From an uncultured Myxococcales bacterium (GTDB lineage: Bacteria; Myxococcota_A; UBA9042), in assembly GCA_903955385.1 (NCBI GenBank), contig CAJBNH010000042.1, forward strand, positions 1 to 49,561: a stretch of 49,561 bases of DNA, read 5' to 3'. Shown piece by piece: positions 31,004 to 40,485 of this stretch; position 1 is the stretch's first letter; each line of letters opens with the position of its first letter. Under the pieces are notes generated by a model. That model saw nothing but the letters and a program-made list of their open reading frames with translations, had not been told where the DNA came from and made no database searches. The position numbers and the translations under genes are program-made.

Positions 31004-31063
31004 GAACGTGCTGCGCGCCGCCGACCGGCCAAGTGCAAGCCCCCTTCTCCGGTGGAGCCCATC

Positions 31064-32332
31064 ATGCGCCTCCTGCCTCTTCTCTGGATCCTGCTGGCCT
31101 GCGCGTTTGCCGCCTGCGGATCGGCGGCCAATGCCGGCGGCGGCACCACGACCGATGAGCCCGACGTCGTCGCCGTGTTCAACAAGGACGTGCCGGACGC
31201 GGACACCAAGACGGACACCAAGACCGACACCGTCACCGACACCAAGACCGACATCGACCCGATCGACGTCTCGATCGTCGATGGCAACGACCCCGATGCG
31301 GCGACCGACACGCCCGACGTCCCCGATCTGGACACCGTCGTCCCCGACGGAACCCCCTCGACCTGCGGCGACAAGTGGTGCGTCGTCGACGACGGCGAGA
31401 CCTGCGAGACCTGCCCTGAGGACTGCGGCGCGTGCGTGATCAAGTGCGGCGACGCGAAGTGCAGCGCTCCCAACGAGGACTGCGCGACCTGCCCCAAGGA
31501 CTGCGGCATCTGCCCCGTACCGTGCGGCGACGGCACATGCAAGGACGGCGAGAACTGCTCGTCCTGCCCTGATGACTGTGGCAAGTGCCCGGATCTGTGC
31601 GGAGACAAGACCTGCAAGGCGCCTGAGGACTGCAAGACCTGCCCACAGGACTGCGGCGTCTGCCCGCCCTCGTGCGGCGACAGCAGCTGCAAGTCGCCGG
31701 AGGACTGCAAGACCTGCCCGGCGGACTGCGGCGTGTGTCCGGGCATCTGCAACCCGCTGACGTCAGAGCTCTGCACCGCCGCGCAGCAGTGCTACTACAC
31801 GCCCACCATGACCAATCCGACGTGCAGCCCGGTCGGCGCGCTGACCAAGGGGTCTGCCTGCCAATTCCTGAATGACTGCGCCAAGGGGATGCTGTGCGTC
31901 AACAGCGTCTGCTCCGCGGTCTGTGACACCTCGGGCAAGACCGCGGGCCTGAACTGCTCGCTGCCCGCCAAGTGCGCAGAGCTCTCCAGCGGCGGCAAGC
32001 CCTTGGGCTACAACATCGGCGCGTGCCTGGGCGGCGACACCTGCAACGTCCTGACCAGCGTCGGCTGCCCCAGCGGCATGGCGTGCAGCCCGGTCGTCGA
32101 GGGCAAGATGTGCGTCCCGACCGGCACCGGCACCCTGAACGTCGCCTGCCCGAATGGCGACAGCGACTGCACCAAGGCCTACATCTGCATGGAAGACAAC
32201 GGCCCCAAGTGCAAGCAGCGCTGCAACACCACCGGCGCTTTGCCCAAGTGCACAAGCCCGCTGACCTGCGTTGGCATCGTGATGGGCGAAGCTCAGGTGC
32301 CCGCCCCGGACAACCTTGGCGTGTGCAACTGA
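31064..32332 (+). CDS. Cys-rich lipoprotein with CGD-type repeats
   Basis: A 422-residue lipoprotein; the signal ends FAA-Cys18. The linker (25-100) is Asp/Thr/Lys-rich and contains four DT(K/V)T units. Five units of the form CGDxxCxxxExCxxCPxDCGxC cover about 105-225. A longer, less regular Cys-rich domain (226-422) has no family I recognise. It is probably a surface or periplasmic protein. GGAG lies 6 bp before the ATG at 31064. The UspA gene follows after 39 bp and might be partly cotranscribed. Confidence 0.82.
   Translation: MRLLPLLWILLACAFAACGSAANAGGGTTTDEPDVVAVFNKDVPDADTKTDTKTDTVTDTKTDIDPIDVSIVDGNDPDAATDTPDVPDLDTVVPDGTPSTCGDKWCVVDDGETCETCPEDCGACVIKCGDAKCSAPNEDCATCPKDCGICPVPCGDGTCKDGENCSSCPDDCGKCPDLCGDKTCKAPEDCKTCPQDCGVCPPSCGDSSCKSPEDCKTCPADCGVCPGICNPLTSELCTAAQQCYYTPTMTNPTCSPVGALTKGSACQFLNDCAKGMLCVNSVCSAVCDTSGKTAGLNCSLPAKCAELSSGGKPLGYNIGACLGGDTCNVLTSVGCPSGMACSPVVEGKMCVPTGTGTLNVACPNGDSDCTKAYICMEDNGPKCKQRCNTTGALPKCTSPLTCVGIVMGEAQVPAPDNLGVCN
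31202..31249 (+). repeat. four tandem 12-bp units in the lipoprotein linker
   Basis: Four tandem copies of GACACCAAGACC with one to three changes each, coding for repeated DTKT. They sit inside the coding frame, so length changes would keep the frame. Confidence 0.8.
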
Positions 32333-32371: not shown

Positions 32372-32851
32372 ATGAAGACCGTGCTCGCCGCCGTCGACTT
32401 CAGCGAAGGCTCGTTCGCCGCCCTGCAGTTCGCCGACGAAATGGCGCGGGTCTATGACTCGGACGTCACCGTGCTGCACGTGGTGCCTCGCTCGACGCAA
32501 GTCCAGGACGGCGGCATCGACCCGAAGGCGGCTGAGCTGTTGATGGACGGCCTGCTCAACGAGGGCAAGCTCGTCACCAACCTGCAAGAGCAGCTGGAGC
32601 TGTTTCTGGCCCGCGCCCCCGACCCACGCCGCCCGCGCCGGGTCATCTTCCGCGCCGGCACGCCCGCCGCCACCATCGTGAAGACAGCCACGGCGTTGGA
32701 CGCGGTGATGATCGTGATGAGCACCCACGGCCGCCGCGGACTCGAGCGGCTGGTGCTGGGCTCGGTCACGGGCGAGGTCGTCAAGCTGGCCCGTCTGCCC
32801 GTTCTGACGCTGCGCCCCGACGTGGTGCCAGGGAAGAAGGGCGGCCGGTAG
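32372..32851 (+). CDS. universal stress protein, UspA family
   Basis: A 159-residue single-domain Usp. The N-terminal VLAAVDFSEGSFAALQFA and the C-terminal STHGRRGLERLVLGSVT fit the ATP-binding type; the first glycine of G-x2-G-x9-G-S is replaced by Ser, as in some members. Usp proteins aid survival in stress and low energy. It ends 10 bp from the convergent hemerythrin gene. That neighbourhood fits a stress or redox role but does not prove coregulation. AGGAG precedes the start. Confidence 0.9.
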   Translation: MKTVLAAVDFSEGSFAALQFADEMARVYDSDVTVLHVVPRSTQVQDGGIDPKAAELLMDGLLNEGKLVTNLQEQLELFLARAPDPRRPRRVIFRAGTPAATIVKTATALDAVMIVMSTHGRRGLERLVLGSVTGEVVKLARLPVLTLRPDVVPGKKGGR

Positions 32852-32861
32852 TACGCCGAGC

Positions 32862-33320
32862 CTAGCCCACGTACGGCTGCAGGCGGTCCCGCAGCCCGAC
32901 CCACATGCCGCCCAGCACCTGCTCGGACATCGGGTACAGCATCGCTTCTTCCTTGGCGTTGTGCTGCTGGATCAGCATCAGCAGCGTGTCGCCTTGGTCC
33001 AGGACCTCGCGCGAGTCGCCACGCACCGCCGCACTCGCCATCTGTCCCAGCACGGCGCGCATCTGGGTGTGCTCCAGACGCATGACGTAGGTGGGTCCGC
33101 CGGTCATGCCGGTCGCCTCCTCGAACGCCGGGAACAGCACCTCCTCCTCCATCGCCAGATGCTGCCGCAACGTCTGCTCGAAGGTCCCCCACAGCGCGGT
33201 CAGGGCGGCCGGGTCTCGACGGTCGATGGCCTGCTCGATGGCTCCCCAGGCGTCGTCGCAGCGGTGATGGTCGTCGGCGAAGAAGGCGGCGAGGGTGGCG
33301 GGACGGTCGGCAAGGCTCAT
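32862..33320 (-). CDS. hemerythrin-like HHE-domain di-iron protein
   Basis: A 152-residue four-helix protein. Likely iron ligands are H18/H19 (DDHHRCD), H54 and E58 (RQHLAMEEE), H84 (RLEHTQM), and H120 and E124 (QQHNAKEE), the hemerythrin HHE pattern. Such proteins bind O2 or NO or repair iron centres. It is transcribed away from the TetR-DUF2249 gene, and both promoters overlap one palindrome, so the regulator very likely controls it. The start at 33320 has GGAG upstream; a start 22 codons earlier would run into the operator. Confidence 0.88.
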   Translation of the reverse strand: MSLADRPATLAAFFADDHHRCDDAWGAIEQAIDRRDPAALTALWGTFEQTLRQHLAMEEEVLFPAFEEATGMTGGPTYVMRLEHTQMRAVLGQMASAAVRGDSREVLDQGDTLLMLIQQHNAKEEAMLYPMSEQVLGGMWVGLRDRLQPYVG

Positions 33321-33357
33321 GGCGGCTCCGGCTTGTGAGAGAGGGCGGCAAGGCCCG

Positions 33358-33386
33358 TTGTGCGATTTGTGGGCCAATGTTATCAT
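33358..33386 (+). promoter_or_regulatory. promoter of the TetR-DUF2249 operon
   Basis: TTGTGC, 17 bp, TATCAT (five of six bases of the -10 consensus). The -10 box lies inside the palindrome at 33379-33394, as expected for autorepression. The leader is short, about 18 nt, with GAGG before the ATG. Confidence 0.55.
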
Positions 33387-33405
33387 GCGATAACTTTAGA
33401 GGCAA
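33377..33405 (-). promoter_or_regulatory. promoter of the hemerythrin gene
   Basis: TTGCCT, 17 bp, TAACAT on the minus strand; the -10 box overlaps the palindrome and the opposing -10 box. Predicted leader of about 50 nt. Confidence 0.45.
33379..33394. promoter_or_regulatory. palindromic operator between hemerythrin and TetR-DUF2249 genes
   Basis: GTTATC, ATGC, GATAAC: a perfect 6-bp inverted repeat with a 4-bp centre, extended outward by AA and TT after one mismatch. It is AT-rich in a GC-rich genome and covers the overlap of two face-to-face promoters. This is the usual place and size for a TetR-family binding site. Confidence 0.65.
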
Positions 33406-33410
33406 CCCCG

Positions 33411-34556
33411 ATGACCGACCACCGCTCCACAGAAGAACGCCGCCAGCAGATCGTTCAGGTCGCGCTGGAGCTGCTGGCCGACCAGTCCGTCGAGCTGCTC
33501 TCGACCCGAGCGATCGCTCTGCGGATGGGACTGTCGCAACCGGCGATCTTTCGGCACTTTCGCACGCGAGACGATCTGCTGGAGGGCGTGGTGGCCCACG
33601 CTCGCGAGGGTCTTGCTGACTTGGCGGCGCGCGCGCTGGCCGGGCGGTCGGGCGGCCTGCGCGACCTGAGTGCGCTGGTCCGCGCCCTGTTCGACCACGT
33701 GCAGCGACACCCGGGGCTGCCACGCATCCTGTTCCACGATGCGTCAGGGGCCGGCCACCCGCAGCTGCGTGCGATGCTGCACGCTCTGGTCGACATGCAG
33801 CGGACACTGGTGGCCGAGCTGGTGCGGGCGGGTCAGCGAGAGGGCGAGATCCCCGACACCGTCGCTCCCGAGCCCGCTGGGCAGTTGTTCGTCGCGCTGC
33901 TGCAGGGAACGCTGCTGCAGTGGCGACTCGCGGGGGCACCGCAAGACCCGAGCCCGGACGGCCTGACGATGCGAGCGGAGGTACTGATCACCTTTCTGCA
34001 AGGTGTGTTGCGCGCGGGAGAGCCGAAGCAGACCGAGCCGACCGGGCTCCCGTCGATGCCGGACTGTCACGCGCCCATTCCATCGGTTCAGCTGCCGCCG
34101 CACGCGGGTCACGCGGGCCTTGTGCAGCTCGATGTGCGGCCCATTCTGGCGTCCGGAACCGACCCGCTGCACGCCATCCTTGCGGCCCTGAAGACGGTTG
34201 CAGCTGACGGAATGCTGCAAGTGATCGCGCCCTTCCGCCCCGCACCGCTGCTGGCGTTGCTGACGGACCAGGGCTTTCGGTGTGAGGCCCTCTTGCTCGG
34301 CCCTGCCTTGTGGCAGGTCGAGGTGCTTGGGCCCGATGCAACCGACGTCGTGGACCTGCGGGAACTGGAGGCGCCAGAGCCCATGGAACAGGTCTTGCTG
34401 CGGTCGTCTCGCCTGCTGGCAGGTCAGTCCCTGCTGGCCCGCGTCCCCCGTACGCCGACCCTGCTGTTGCCCCGCTTGGCCGAACGGGGCTTGGTCGCCA
34501 CGCCCTGCTTGCAGCCAGACGGCTCGGCGCTGCTGCATGTACGGAGGCTCGGGTGA
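33411..34556 (+). CDS. TetR-family regulator fused to two DUF2249-like domains
   Basis: A 381-residue protein with three parts. Residues 5-55 are a TetR helix-turn-helix (STRAIALRMGLSQPAIFRHF); 60-205 is a TetR-type helical ligand domain. After a linker come two DUF2249-like domains: 239-305 (QLDVRPILASGTDPLHAILA and LLALLTDQGF) and 314-380 (VVDLRELEAPEPMEQVLL and LHVRRLG). DUF2249 proteins commonly accompany hemerythrin-like and denitrification or NO-response genes; a fusion to TetR is not a form I know. It probably represses its own operon and the hemerythrin gene through the palindrome, with the DUF2249 pair as sensor or cofactor binder (inference). The start at 33411 follows the promoter. 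The stop overlaps the next start. Confidence 0.85.
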   Translation: MTDHRSTEERRQQIVQVALELLADQSVELLSTRAIALRMGLSQPAIFRHFRTRDDLLEGVVAHAREGLADLAARALAGRSGGLRDLSALVRALFDHVQRHPGLPRILFHDASGAGHPQLRAMLHALVDMQRTLVAELVRAGQREGEIPDTVAPEPAGQLFVALLQGTLLQWRLAGAPQDPSPDGLTMRAEVLITFLQGVLRAGEPKQTEPTGLPSMPDCHAPIPSVQLPPHAGHAGLVQLDVRPILASGTDPLHAILAALKTVAADGMLQVIAPFRPAPLLALLTDQGFRCEALLLGPALWQVEVLGPDATDVVDLRELEAPEPMEQVLLRSSRLLAGQSLLARVPRTPTLLLPRLAERGLVATPCLQPDGSALLHVRRLG

Positions 34557-35872
34557 ACCACGCCGGACTCCGACTGGACCAGGCCCCGCCGCTGCACGTT
34601 CCGCTCGCCTTCTTCGCGACGGCGCCGCTGTTCCTTGCCGTTGCGGGCTGGCTGCTGCTGTCGGACGGGGCGGCGGTGTTCTCAAGCCCTTGGACACCAG
34701 TGACGTTGGGGCTGACCCACTTGGGAACGCTTGGCTTTCTCAGCATGGTGATGCTGGGGGCGCTGTACCAGATGACTCCGGTGGTGGCAGCCGTGCCCGT
34801 GCCTGCGGTGCGCGGGGCCCTTGGGGTGCAGGCGCTGGTGACCGTCGGCGCCGCGGGGCTGGCAGCGGTGCTGGCGGCGGGACTGGGCGGGGGGTCTGCC
34901 TGGCGCAACGGAGCGGCGATCGTGACGCTCGCGACAGGGCTTGTGCTGGTTCTGGGGCCGGTCGCGGTGGCCCTGGGCCGGTCGCGGACGCCGGGGGAAA
35001 CTGTCGCCGGAATGCGTTTGGCGCTGGCCTGTCTGGCGGTGCTGGCCGTGCTGGGCGTGTGGATGGCTTGGGGATACGTGGACTTCCGTTTCCCGGGGTC
35101 GCGCCGCCTGTGGACGCAGGTGCACCTGACGGTGGCCTTGGGTGGCTGGGTTGGAGGCTTGGTCACCGCGGTGTCGTGGCAAGTGGTGCCGATGTTCTAT
35201 CTCGCGGCCCCGGTCCCGCAGGCGTGGCGCCGCGTGGTGCTGGGAGGGGTCGCTATCGGCGTCGTGGCTCCGCTGCTGGTGCTCGCGAGCGCGCACGCGG
35301 GGCTGCCGTGGCCAGATCCGCAGCTGGCGGCCGGACTTGCGGCCCTTCCCGTGGTGCTGGCGGTCGGCTGGGCCCACCCGTTGCTGCTGCTGGGCAGCCT
35401 GCGGGCGCGCAAGCGGAGGCGGTCGGACCCGAGCCTCCTTGCGTGGAAGGCCGCGCTGTTGCACGCATTTCTCCTGCCTCCACTGGCGGTCGCCGCCCTG
35501 CTGTCGGCTGCCCCAGCTCCTTCGCTGCTGTTCGGGTGGTGGGCCATCTGGGGCTGGGCGGGGCTGGTCGTGCACGGGATGCTGACGCGCATCGTCCCGT
35601 TTCTGGTGTGGTTCCATCGGTTCTCGCCGCTGGTTGGCTTGCAGCCCACCCCACCGATGAATCGCTTGTGGCCAGAGCACTTGCAGCAAGTCGGCCTCAG
35701 TCTTCACCTGGCCTCGGTGCTGTCGGGTGTGATGGCTATCGTGACCGGCTGGGAAATTGCCGCGAGAGTGACGGGCGGTCTGGTGATGGCGACCGCAGCG
35801 GCGTTGGCGGCGGGGCTGTACCGCACGTGGCGGCAGCGCCCCACGCCACCACCGGAGAATTCAGCCAATTGA
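34553..35872 (+). CDS. heme-copper-oxidase-subunit-I/NnrS-like membrane protein
   Basis: A 439-residue protein with about twelve membrane helices and little loop sequence. Conserved-looking histidines sit in helices: THLGTLGFLSMVMLGALYQM, VHLTVALGGWVGGLVTAVSW, and VVHGMLTRIVPFLVWFHRF. This fits the group of membrane proteins related to cbb3 oxidase subunit I or NnrS that accompany NO and nitrogen-oxide metabolism. It lacks an obvious full oxidase metal site, so it is not called an oxidase. The GTG start overlaps the regulator stop (GTGA) behind GGAGG, so the two are translationally coupled. Confidence 0.72.
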   Translation: MNHAGLRLDQAPPLHVPLAFFATAPLFLAVAGWLLLSDGAAVFSSPWTPVTLGLTHLGTLGFLSMVMLGALYQMTPVVAAVPVPAVRGALGVQALVTVGAAGLAAVLAAGLGGGSAWRNGAAIVTLATGLVLVLGPVAVALGRSRTPGETVAGMRLALACLAVLAVLGVWMAWGYVDFRFPGSRRLWTQVHLTVALGGWVGGLVTAVSWQVVPMFYLAAPVPQAWRRVVLGGVAIGVVAPLLVLASAHAGLPWPDPQLAAGLAALPVVLAVGWAHPLLLLGSLRARKRRRSDPSLLAWKAALLHAFLLPPLAVAALLSAAPAPSLLFGWWAIWGWAGLVVHGMLTRIVPFLVWFHRFSPLVGLQPTPPMNRLWPEHLQQVGLSLHLASVLSGVMAIVTGWEIAARVTGGLVMATAAALAAGLYRTWRQRPTPPPENSAN

Positions 35873-37046: not shown

Positions 37047-37642
37047 CGCCCATCCTCCCCACCACACTGGCGGCTGCTTGTGCGCTGGCCTGCGCGCTGG
37101 CCACCGGCGGACTGCCGGCCACCGCCCATGCCACGGCTCCGGCAGCCAAGTCAGCAAGCAAGCCCGCGACCAGTCTGCGTTTTCATGCCTGGCGCGGCGA
37201 CGGATTCCGCGTGGACGTGCCCAGCGCCGACCATACGGTTCAGGGCGAGTCGTTCCCCGACGCCCGCCCGCAACAAGCCGTCTACACGGCCGATATCCTG
37301 CGCGGCAAGGATGCCGTCGCCCGCTTCGAGTCGTTCGCCAATCCCGGGCGGCTGACGGCGCGGCAGTGGCTGGCCGGCGATCAGGCCTTCCTGATCATGC
37401 CGGGCGCGGTCGTCACGGACCTTCCAGCCAAAGGCAAGCGCACGTCGGTTCGGCTTGTCCAGCCCCGCACGCCGCAGTCCCTTGCGCGAGACATGGTGCT
37501 GATTTCAGATGGGATGTGGCTGTTGCGACTGACTTGTGAGCGCAGCGACGACCCGGACGCGCGGGCCGTTCTGGACCGCGCCGCCGCGACCATTCGCCCG
37601 ATCGCCAGCGCTCGAACCGTCACCGCGCGGAGGAAGCCATGA
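37043..37642 (+). CDS. small secreted protein of the CHAP operon
   Basis: A 199-residue protein with a signal peptide (cleavage near ATAHA, residue 30) and one globular domain (40-190). I recognise no family. The GTG start overlaps the upstream stop and has a perfect AAGGAGG ribosome site; its own stop overlaps the CHAP gene start (ATGA). The coupling implies equal production and a shared extracytoplasmic task. Confidence 0.8.
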   Translation: MTPILPTTLAAACALACALATGGLPATAHATAPAAKSASKPATSLRFHAWRGDGFRVDVPSADHTVQGESFPDARPQQAVYTADILRGKDAVARFESFANPGRLTARQWLAGDQAFLIMPGAVVTDLPAKGKRTSVRLVQPRTPQSLARDMVLISDGMWLLRLTCERSDDPDARAVLDRAAATIRPIASARTVTARRKP

Positions 37643-40485
37643 TCCGCCGCCTGTTGCCCCTGCTGACCGGTCTGGTCCTCGCGCTTGCCGCGACCGCCGC
37701 ACCCGAGACCGCCCACGCCGTCTCGTGCGGCGGCCAATCCGACAACTGCCAATGCGGCAAGAACAATCCGTATCCGTGCTGCGACAACAACGGCAACTGC
37801 ACCTGGTGGGCTTGGCACTCGGCCTGCTGCGGCTGGGGCGTGGGTCTGCCGGGGTGGGGCAACGCCAACACCTGGGCCAGCTATGCCAGCCAAAACGGCA
37901 ACTTCGAGGTCCTGAACTACCCGGTACCGAACTCGATCGCGACCAGCACCAAGGGCGGCTACGGCCACGTCGCGTGGGTCACGGCCGTCAACGGCAGCAA
38001 GATCACGGTGACCGAGCAGAACTGCTGCGGCAGTTGCAAGGGCGGCGCCCGGACGTGGTCGTATGACGCCAGCTACTTCAACTCGGGCTACGTCATCCGC
38101 AAGGGCCAGCTGGGACCCGTATGCGGCAACGGCAAGTGCGAGAACAACGAAAACTGCTCGAATTGCAGCCAAGACTGCGGATCGTGCTGCGGCAACGGCG
38201 CCTGCGACAACGGCGAAAATTGCGGGTCGTGCTCGAAGGACTGCGGCTCGTGCTGCGGCAACGGCCAGTGCGACAACGGCGAGAACTGCAGCACCTGTGA
38301 CAAGGACTGCGGCAAGTGCTGCGGCAACGGTGCCTGCGACTACGGCGAGCAGTGCGAGACCTGCCCCACCGACTGCAAGTGCCTGCCCAGCGGCGAATTG
38401 AGCCCGACCTGCGCACAGGCGGCGGGGTGGGCGTGGGACCCCGACAATCAGGGCGAAAAGGTGCATCTGGCCGTTCAGGTCGACGGCGCGGAGATGGCCA
38501 AGTTCGTCGCGGAGGGCCCCTATCCCAACCACGATGGCCGCGGCTTCGCATGGCCTGTCCCTGCAGAGCTGAAAGACGGCCAACCCCACGCCGTGACCGC
38601 CGTCGTCGCCGACACGCAGACGGCCGGCACCACCACGTTGGGGCCCAAGAGCTTCCTGTGCGAGAACAGCGTGGGACAGCTGGGCATTTGGACGGTCACG
38701 CGCACCGACTCGGCCGGCATGAGCGTGCTGCTGCCTGAGGTCGACCCGCCCAACCTCGCCCTGCGCAACGAGCACCCCGCCGGCTATCCGTATCCGATCT
38801 CTGGCACCGTCGACACGTGCACCCAGCCGGGCGTGCAGCCGTTCGACGCGGTGGAGGCCCTGGCCGAGTGGGACCTGGCCGGTGCGCCCTTTGTCGCCAA
38901 GGTGCTGATCGACGGCAAGGAAGCCAAGGCGTGGCAAGGACCTGCAGGCAGCGAGCCGTTCGCGTTTGTCGGCAAGGGTACGCAGATCTGCATTCGCACC
39001 GAGGCCATGGCGATGGTCGACGCGCCCGCCGCGGCGATGGCCGTGCTGCGGAGCCTGCGGATGCAGCGGGGGCCCTGGTGGTACTCGTACCGCTATGACA
39101 CCGAAGGCCTCACGTTCAGTCGCCCGGGGGCCGACGAGGTCGTGTTTCTGCCGCGATCTCCCGCGGGTGGCGCCGCACAGGGTTGGGCGCGTGCGTGGCA
39201 CGACTTTTCGCAGGCGTTTGATGCCGTGTCGTACCAGTTGCACCTGGGGCCAGCGCCCGTGCCGGGTGGTGTGGCTGAGCTGCTGATCGACGGCAAGCCT
39301 TACGTCGCCACCGAAGGCGGCCGTGTGCAAGCCGTGACGCCCGGCAAGCAATTGGCCGTGCAGCTGCGCCTGGAGCAGCCGACGACCCTGGATCCGACGG
39401 CGGCCGTCGCGTTCTCGCAAGTGCGGGTGCACCAGAACGACGTGCAGACCGACGGGCCGTGGACGATTGCGAAGAAAAACTCCTGGGGCTTCAGCGGCGG
39501 CATCTCTCCCGACGTGGACCTGCTGGCCCGCGGTTTGGACGTGACCCTGCGCCACGATTCCCCCGGCTGGTGGACCACGGGTGCGGTCGAGGCCCTGCTG
39601 GAGGTCAAGGGCGCGCCGTTTGAGCGAGTCCGCGGTCAGGTGCGCACGGTGCTGCCGCATCCGTCGCTGCAAGTGCAGGTAATCGCAAATGGAGAGGTCG
39701 CCCACACGGTTCAGGGGCAGAGCGACCTGCAGGCGTTCGATGTTCCGGCGATCGGCAACTGGCTGGCGGTGCGACTGGGCGTGTCGCAGGACCGCGAGAT
39801 GTCGGAGGCGGCCGAGGCGCAGGTTCGCAACGTCGAGTGGCTGCGTCAGGGTTGGTGGTCGGCGTACAGCCCGCGCGCTGCTGGGTTCCGCGACGACCGT
39901 CCTGCACCCGGAGCTGTGCGCTTCGAACACTCGCGGGCGTGGGCGATGTTGGACCATGCGCCCCAGGGTGCCGTCGTGGTGCACCGGGAATTCGTGCAAC
40001 CCCAGACCGGTGTTCGCTTTACCTACAGCTATGACCTGCCCCAAGGGCTGTACCGGGTGTTCGTGCTGCTGGACGGCAAGCCCGCGCGTTTGCTGGACGA
40101 CATGGGAGCGGACGAGGTCGAGGTCGAGCTGACCGGCGAGTCCTTTACCGACTTGGGGTTGGCGTTCGTTGCCCGCGAAGACGCGCCCATCGTCGCGGAG
40201 CATGGCTTTGCCGAGGCCACGCAGATCGCGGTGCAGGGCAAGACTGGCAAGTGGACGCCCTTCAAGGACGCTGCGGTGATCGCGCCGATGATGCCGAACG
40301 ACGCGGGGACGCTGGACATCGCCGACATCGCCTCAGACGCCACGGCAACGGCCGCCCAGCCCAGCGACCCCGGTGGCGGCGGCTGCACGGCAACCCCGCA
40401 GTCCACACCGGCGACGGGCGGCCTGCTGATGCTGGTGCTGCTTGGGCTGTGGGGTCTGGCGCGTCGGCGGATCGGCCGGGCGTAG
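37639..40485 (+). CDS. CHAP-domain amidase-like protein with Cys repeats and MYXO-CTERM tail
   Basis: A 948-residue protein. Signal peptide to AHA27. The CHAP domain (about 30-155) has its catalytic Cys54 in NGNCTWWAWH and His110 in GYGHVAWV; CHAP enzymes cut amide bonds in peptidoglycan. Four repeats of the form CGNGxCDNGENCxxCxxDC cover 162-248. Residues 250-910 hold about four copies of a diverged module marked by LIDGK and a WW-YS motif (RGPWWYSYRYDTEGL, RQGWWSAYSPRAAGF). The tail GGGGC, helix and RRRIGRA is MYXO-CTERM-like. A surface-displayed wall hydrolase, useful for remodelling or attacking other bacteria, is the likely role. It ends 12 bp from a convergent gene. Confidence 0.82.
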   Translation: MIRRLLPLLTGLVLALAATAAPETAHAVSCGGQSDNCQCGKNNPYPCCDNNGNCTWWAWHSACCGWGVGLPGWGNANTWASYASQNGNFEVLNYPVPNSIATSTKGGYGHVAWVTAVNGSKITVTEQNCCGSCKGGARTWSYDASYFNSGYVIRKGQLGPVCGNGKCENNENCSNCSQDCGSCCGNGACDNGENCGSCSKDCGSCCGNGQCDNGENCSTCDKDCGKCCGNGACDYGEQCETCPTDCKCLPSGELSPTCAQAAGWAWDPDNQGEKVHLAVQVDGAEMAKFVAEGPYPNHDGRGFAWPVPAELKDGQPHAVTAVVADTQTAGTTTLGPKSFLCENSVGQLGIWTVTRTDSAGMSVLLPEVDPPNLALRNEHPAGYPYPISGTVDTCTQPGVQPFDAVEALAEWDLAGAPFVAKVLIDGKEAKAWQGPAGSEPFAFVGKGTQICIRTEAMAMVDAPAAAMAVLRSLRMQRGPWWYSYRYDTEGLTFSRPGADEVVFLPRSPAGGAAQGWARAWHDFSQAFDAVSYQLHLGPAPVPGGVAELLIDGKPYVATEGGRVQAVTPGKQLAVQLRLEQPTTLDPTAAVAFSQVRVHQNDVQTDGPWTIAKKNSWGFSGGISPDVDLLARGLDVTLRHDSPGWWTTGAVEALLEVKGAPFERVRGQVRTVLPHPSLQVQVIANGEVAHTVQGQSDLQAFDVPAIGNWLAVRLGVSQDREMSEAAEAQVRNVEWLRQGWWSAYSPRAAGFRDDRPAPGAVRFEHSRAWAMLDHAPQGAVVVHREFVQPQTGVRFTYSYDLPQGLYRVFVLLDGKPARLLDDMGADEVEVELTGESFTDLGLAFVAREDAPIVAEHGFAEATQIAVQGKTGKWTPFKDAAVIAPMMPNDAGTLDIADIASDATATAAQPSDPGGGGCTATPQSTPATGGLLMLVLLGLWGLARRRIGRA

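Follow-up and report, generated by a model that had tools for sequence, protein, structure and literature searches.

A TetR-DUF2249 fusion protein and its candidate operator in a predicted stress module of Myxococcota

A three-gene module around a TetR-DUF2249 fusion

We focused on a three-gene module encoded in a 49,561-nucleotide stretch of DNA from an uncultured Myxococcales bacterium (contig CAJBNH010000042.1 of assembly GCA_903955385.1; referred to as the window here), whose genome (G000) comprises 5.3 Mb in 201 contigs. In this module, a gene for a hemerythrin-fold protein is divergent from a gene for a TetR-DUF2249-DUF2249 fusion, which is followed by a gene for a membrane protein, and a palindrome, the candidate operator, is located between the divergent genes (Table 1). 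Taken together, the data described below make it fairly likely that this is a self-contained, autoregulated stress module controlled by the fusion. The layout had been proposed in an earlier note made from the sequence alone, and it was confirmed here: Pfam places the TetR domain and two DUF2249 domains in one 381-residue protein, the membrane protein gene is coupled to the fusion gene by an overlap of its GTG start with the TGA stop (GTGA), and the divergent gene encodes an HHE di-iron protein according to its coordinates and its Pfam match. Judging from the alignment, the conserved start of the hemerythrin gene is the ATG at 33320 and not the in-frame ATG at 33386, which lies within the palindrome.

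Table 1 Features of the module in the window and domains of the fusion protein
Feature	Position	Strand	Length	Basis
Hemerythrin-fold (HHE) di-iron protein	32862..33320	-	152 aa	Pfam Hemerythrin 5e-20
Candidate operator GTTATC-ATGC-GATAAC, common to both divergent promoters	33379..33394			Conservation at 39 fusion loci
TetR-DUF2249-DUF2249 fusion	33411..34556	+	381 aa	Pfam, AlphaFold, orthologue alignment
Fusion, helix-turn-helix (HTH)	residues 14-58
Fusion, TetR C domain	residues ~84-200
Fusion, flexible linker	residues ~206-233
Fusion, DUF2249 domains	residues ~240-305 and 314-369
Twelve-helix membrane protein, predicted heme-copper-oxidase subunit-I fold	34553..35872	+	439 aa	AlphaFold, Foldseek, alignment

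The domain composition of the fusion is supported by profile matches along its whole length. The N terminus matches TetR_N (PF00440; 1.7e-10, 40.9 bits versus a cutoff of 24), and a match to TetR_C_13 (3.6e-6, 27.8 bits versus a cutoff of 27) indicates that the helical C-terminal dimerization and ligand domain is complete. The two C-terminal domains, which the earlier note had assigned to DUF2249, match this family (PF10006) at 2e-20 together, with both copies (43.8 and 36.8 bits) above the gathering cutoff of 29.5. The structure prediction that had been suggested as a check gave an AlphaFold model (predicted local distance difference test [pLDDT], 89), in which Foldseek matched TetR chains over ∼190 residues and residues 211 to 231 are disordered. 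Among the best 50 matches from the Protein Data Bank (PDB), this model retrieved only TetR-type chains; weak Pfam TusA matches (best, 5e-8, in other DUF2249 proteins) and the predicted succession of strands and helices hint at a TusA-like fold for DUF2249. The nearest curated models to the TetR part are SlmA and TetR, although SlmA orthology was rejected given a score of 64.2 bits versus a family cutoff of 120. The closest TetR-only relatives that we found (L240:3802-4428 and L241:3928-4557) head exporter-like operons with an ABC ATPase and a permease, and proteins of such operons are a possible source of the TetR part of the fusion.

The hemerythrin-fold protein has six invariant ligands (H18, H54, E58, H84, H120, and E124 in 22 sequences). 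YtfE was its only PDB profile match, with H54, E58, and H84 falling on the conserved H-x3-E and H of YtfE, and the ligands follow one another as they do in that protein, suggesting a RIC/YtfE-type ligand set. The protein thus resembles RIC, YtfE, ScdA, and DnrN in its hemerythrin-fold domain and in its four histidines and two glutamates in the same order, but it lacks the ScdA_N domain and stays far under the RIC and YtfE score cutoffs (30.5 bits versus 204.7 for TIGR03652), so that it was not assigned to this family.

For the membrane protein, AlphaFold predicted twelve long helices (pLDDT, 94; predicted template modeling score, 0.92), and the best PDB matches in Foldseek were the cbb3 oxidase subunit CcoN (template modeling [TM] score, 0.71; E value, 6e-6) and the nitric oxide (NO) reductase NorB (TM score, 0.60). 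Five histidines are invariant (H56, H191, H341, H355, and H385) and are located in helices II, VI, X, and XI according to the alignment and the helix borders, so that the twelve-helix, histidine-containing protein of the earlier note was recovered. The twelve-helix fold and the histidines in helices II, VI, and X are shared with subunit I of the heme-copper oxidases (CcoN and NorB). In contrast, the histidine pair of helix VII, which provides the CuB-site ligands in oxidases, is absent, leaving the full set of heme and CuB ligands incomplete, and the protein may bind heme without being an oxidase. No Pfam family matched the protein, and it has no significant COX1 or NnrS sequence match. The earlier description as oxidase-I/NnrS-like is therefore retained for its first half only: the fold is oxidase-I-like, whereas NnrS identity was rejected with an hhalign probability of 0.5% and no PF05940 match in the window protein or in aligned members. 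On the strength of the structural model, we consider it a separate family with a predicted heme-copper-oxidase subunit-I fold.

The profile of this protein is homologous (hhalign, 100%) to one built from two distant members and the membrane proteins of a second operon type (L150:4591-7011, L151:3544-5923, and L181:3264-5604). These operons combine a related oxidase-fold membrane protein with a tandem or triple DUF2249 protein and, where tested, with an FeS_assembly_P (DUF59) protein; the one in L150 also contains DUF1858, as in Thermus DrpB.

A candidate operator coupled to the TetR part

The operator of the window (GTTATCATGCGATAAC) is located 16 nucleotides before the ATG of the fusion gene and 58 nucleotides before that of the hemerythrin gene, in agreement with the earlier claim that a single palindrome covers both promoters. 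It is the sole match in the window at up to three mismatches (chance mean, 0.06), and the exact pattern GTTATCN4GATAAC has one copy in the whole G000 genome. No σ70 consensus promoter was found between the divergent genes, although its absence says little in this phylum.

To follow the module across relatives, we searched 138 related genomes and then 379 Myxococcota genomes; all are drafts, and the gene starts come in part from our own gene-calling script, which was checked on the window. The fusion is present in 39 of the 379 genomes, including most families sampled, with two copies cut by contig ends, and the aligned orthologues are 34 to 51% identical to the window fusion. Listing the neighbors of this architecture, as the earlier note had proposed, returned the same order of divergent hemerythrin, fusion, and membrane protein genes wherever the contig was long enough, according to hidden Markov models built from the alignments. 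The exception is G032 (L068:2886-4115), where the fusion is found without the hemerythrin or the membrane protein; its own operator has one mismatch, and eight exact copies are located elsewhere. Additionally, a scan of genome contigs with one protein found one relative, on a contig with the same module as G106, and a plasmid search found no relative of the membrane protein.

The operator was found at the promoter of 39 fusion loci, in 36 of them as an exact copy and in three (L028, L068, and L153) with one mismatch, so that the conservation at orthologues on which the earlier interpretation depended is present. In 38 loci, it is found in the intergenic region of the divergent genes, and in G032, it precedes the solitary fusion. 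With few exceptions, the distance to the fusion start is 0 to 94 nucleotides, and in several loci the site directly adjoins the ATG. The aligned sites define the consensus AT-GTTATC-R-NN-Y-GATAAC-AT. An exact copy occurs in 37 of the 39 genomes with the fusion and in 5 of the 340 others (Fisher test, P = 2e-43), while a reversed control pattern is nearly absent from the genomes. The sites in fusion-free genomes (L108, L109, L112, and L230 to L233) are unconnected with the module and seem to have arisen by chance. Since the genomes are related, this P value is only a guide, and independent evidence comes from contrasts between branches of the membrane protein tree.

Such contrasts are available because the membrane protein family extends beyond the genomes with the fusion, with matches, some of them weak, in 95 of the 379 genomes. 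Among the modules without the TetR part, 12 examined loci have a free-standing DUF2249 protein, and several are made up of the hemerythrin and membrane protein genes and lack DUF2249. The operator is missing from all of these modules, the best intergenic match having at least three mismatches; counted by genome, the operator is found in 0 of 19 unfused modules and in 37 of 39 fused ones (P = 2e-13). On the membrane protein tree, the fused state requires five changes, and unfused branches are located beside or inside fused ones: L146 and L148 beside L060, L168 beside L169 of the same genus, and a 12-row clade beside L057 and L153. At each of these contrasts, the operator accompanies the TetR part. 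Neither FNR-type boxes nor a shared substitute palindrome was found in the modules lacking the TetR part, and no other TetR gene is consistently linked to the module. The branch contrasts provide the strongest evidence, short of biochemistry, that the TetR part would read the operator, and this coupling, seen across genomes and again on separate branches, argues that the TetR part is very probably a repressor of the divergent operon to which it belongs, as the proposal of self-regulation through one shared operator had predicted. Given that the module also occurs with a free-standing DUF2249 or with none, DUF2249 probably has a job apart from transcription.

Proposed mechanism, signal, and alternative explanations

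On the basis of what the sequence statistics establish (gene content, domain architecture, operator, and the coupling of the operator to the TetR part), we propose the following mechanism. The TetR half, presumably acting as one dimer or as two, would bind the one operator located between the divergent promoters, and the bound fusion would repress both the hemerythrin gene and its own operon with the membrane protein. A signal, most likely NO/nitrosative or related redox stress, would release the repressor, so that all three products are made. The di-iron and oxidase-fold membrane proteins may then bind, convert, or pass on a small molecule, or repair damaged iron centers, while DUF2249 would work with these partners and, through the fusion, could report their state to the DNA-binding part.

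Several lines of evidence support the earlier assignment of the gene set to NO/redox biology, among them the RIC-type ligands of the hemerythrin-fold protein. In G082 (L111:3976-4696), a second operator is located 38 nucleotides before a RIC gene (TIGR03652, 207.7 bits versus a cutoff of 204.7), so that RIC itself sits under a copy of this operator, and in G060 (L061:10277-11443), a true NnrS gene (PF05940, 3e-57) lies directly downstream of the module. In published regulons, dnrN (RIC) and nnrS are counted as core NO-regulon genes, and COG4309, which corresponds to DUF2249, is found under NnrR and NsrR together with nor genes, including COG4309-norB operons (PMC1274295). DUF2249 genes are induced in denitrifying haloarchaea (PMC11218638), and the DUF2249 proteins DrpA and DrpB act in the nitrate respiration of Thermus (PMC6282519). 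These points make NO/nitrosative or redox stress the likeliest signal. The RIC gene of G082 is followed by a gene for a CopD-like membrane protein.

In comparison with these systems, the module combines familiar parts in an arrangement that appears to be new. The DUF2249/COG4309 proteins of Thermus, of the haloarchaea, and of the COG4309-norB operons contain the same domain, single or in tandem, in nitrogen-oxide gene sets and have been proposed as sensors or accessory proteins; however, they are stand-alone, associated with DUF1858, or under NnrR, NsrR, or other regulators, whereas here the domain is joined to a regulator with its own operator. The regulons of NsrR, NorR, NnrR, and DNR include the same kinds of genes (RIC, NnrS, DUF2249, and hemerythrin-like), but these regulators are Rrf2, σ54-dependent, or CRP/FNR proteins with other operators. 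With TetR-family repressors, the fusion shares the N-terminal HTH, the helical C domain, and a palindromic operator at its own divergent promoter, and it differs from them by two DUF2249 domains added at the C terminus through a flexible linker and by the operator GTTATC-RNNY-GATAAC. No description of a TetR-DUF2249 fusion was found in the literature searched, which covered few subscription journals. As far as sequence comparison goes, the novelty thus appears to lie in a regulator-DUF2249 fusion with its own operator, while the component families and their NO/redox gene context are known.

Some observations weigh against an NO-responsive local switch with DUF2249 as the transmitter. The RIC operator and the NnrS neighbor each come from a single genome, some genomes contain more operator sites than a purely local switch needs, and no invariant cysteine or histidine is found in DUF2249 (the best, H289, is present in 15 of 22 sequences and is F in the window protein). 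Furthermore, G000 has no NnrS (PF05940) match and only one COX1-type match, so that neither a source of NO nor an NO reductase is evident in this genome, making defense a likelier role for the module than denitrification. This gene content also suits a signal other than NO, such as oxygen, peroxide, zinc or iron status, or another redox cue, and so do the involvement of hemerythrin-fold and oxidase-fold proteins in oxygen and iron biology and the action of DrpA and DrpB in nitrate respiration (PMC6282519). We regard such a signal as a substantial possibility, though not the favored one, because in relatives two core genes of NO regulons are associated with this system, RIC with the operator and NnrS with the module.

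The location of the sensor is a related question. The earlier note had placed the sensor and the repressor in one polypeptide, and the DNA-binding part and the two DUF2249 domains are indeed found in one protein, but its assignment of DUF2249 as the signal-sensing part was not upheld. Without an invariant cysteine or histidine, direct metal sensing through such residues was rejected, and the data do not support that DUF2249 by itself senses metal or NO directly; since the TetR C-terminal ligand domain is complete as well, sensing could fall to either part or to a partner protein, for example through contact of DUF2249 with the di-iron or membrane protein or through a ligand in the TetR C domain. 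Taken further, the TetR C domain may bind an ordinary small-molecule ligand, with DUF2249 being an attached effector domain of the operon that does not contribute to sensing. In line with this, fusions with only one DUF2249 (L026, L161, and L164) retain the operator, and the common free-standing form in the same module points to a role without DNA binding. However, no pocket residues indicative of a ligand class were identified, and the retention of the fusion in most families despite great sequence divergence (34 to 51% identity) suggests that the link itself is useful, so that we consider this explanation unlikely. A fusion that mainly activates the module, or that turns from a repressor into an activator, is more improbable still. 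The closest curated relative of the TetR part is SlmA, for which direct activation has been reported in Vibrio cholerae (PMC5519180), but with the operator at or just upstream of start codons and between divergent genes, a bound protein would block both. Finally, non-TetR regulators also bind palindromes, and binding by the fusion is a prediction, so that another protein could read the site while the fusion merely co-occurs with it. This is highly improbable, given that the operator follows the TetR part on several branches while the rest of the module stays and that no alternative TetR gene is consistently nearby.

The module would provide Myxococcota with a candidate NO/redox regulator that belongs to none of the NsrR, NorR, and DNR families. 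DUF2249 domains occur widely in gene sets for NO and denitrification. As the domain is joined here to a DNA-binding part whose operator is sharply defined, its response could be followed in a reporter or gel-shift assay. The fused and unfused versions of the module found side by side, one pair of them in a single genus, offer a ready comparison set.

Operator sites inside genes and neighboring genes

Some genomes contain exact operator sites beyond the one at the module. The number per genome ranges from 1 in G000 to 5 to 10 in G004, G005, G009, and G016, with 8 in G032, and the sites are mostly located inside genes. In the family of the window, 13 genomes with the fusion hold 28 further exact sites (L075 to L087 and L093 to L106), all of them in G004, G009, G016, G005, G006, and G019. 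The 9 genomes of this family without a detected fusion have no sites; one of them, G020, may hold a fusion, as its contig ends at the module. Two control palindromes of the same composition gave 8 and 5 matches in all 22 genomes of the family. Nearly all extra sites fall within unrelated genes, including those for two asparagine synthases, an FHA-GAF-cyclase protein, TerC, and a pyridoxal phosphate-dependent decarboxylase.

The R-NN-Y rule of the consensus is obeyed by 27 of the 28 extra sites versus 2 of 7 sites in genomes without the fusion. The extra sites need TTA or ATA codons, which make up 0.6% of the leucine and 1% of the isoleucine codons there, and in 6 of 6 cases for G009 and 4 of 4 for G004, a sister genome has the site at the identical codon. 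In comparable segments of these genes, both arms are retained in 5 to 29% of cases, and the asparagine synthase site is eroded in G013 and G020. This pattern looks like selection for a DNA site within coding sequence. RefZ and SlmA are TetR-family precedents for binding to chromosome sites, and we raise the tentative, rather doubtful idea that in several lineages the fusion also binds sites in unrelated coding sequence and has a second, nonpromoter role there, as a roadblock or in nucleoid/division coupling as for SlmA and RefZ, tied to NO/redox conditions through DUF2249. If the fusion occupies such sites, a stress regulator would be connected with DNA binding outside promoters.

In the window, the module is adjoined by a gene for a universal stress protein (32372-32851; PF00582, 2e-28), which is convergent with the hemerythrin gene. 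Two exported-looking proteins, encoded at 31052-32332 and 37639-40485, contain repeated cysteine motifs of the type CGDxxCxxxENCxxCPxDCGxC.

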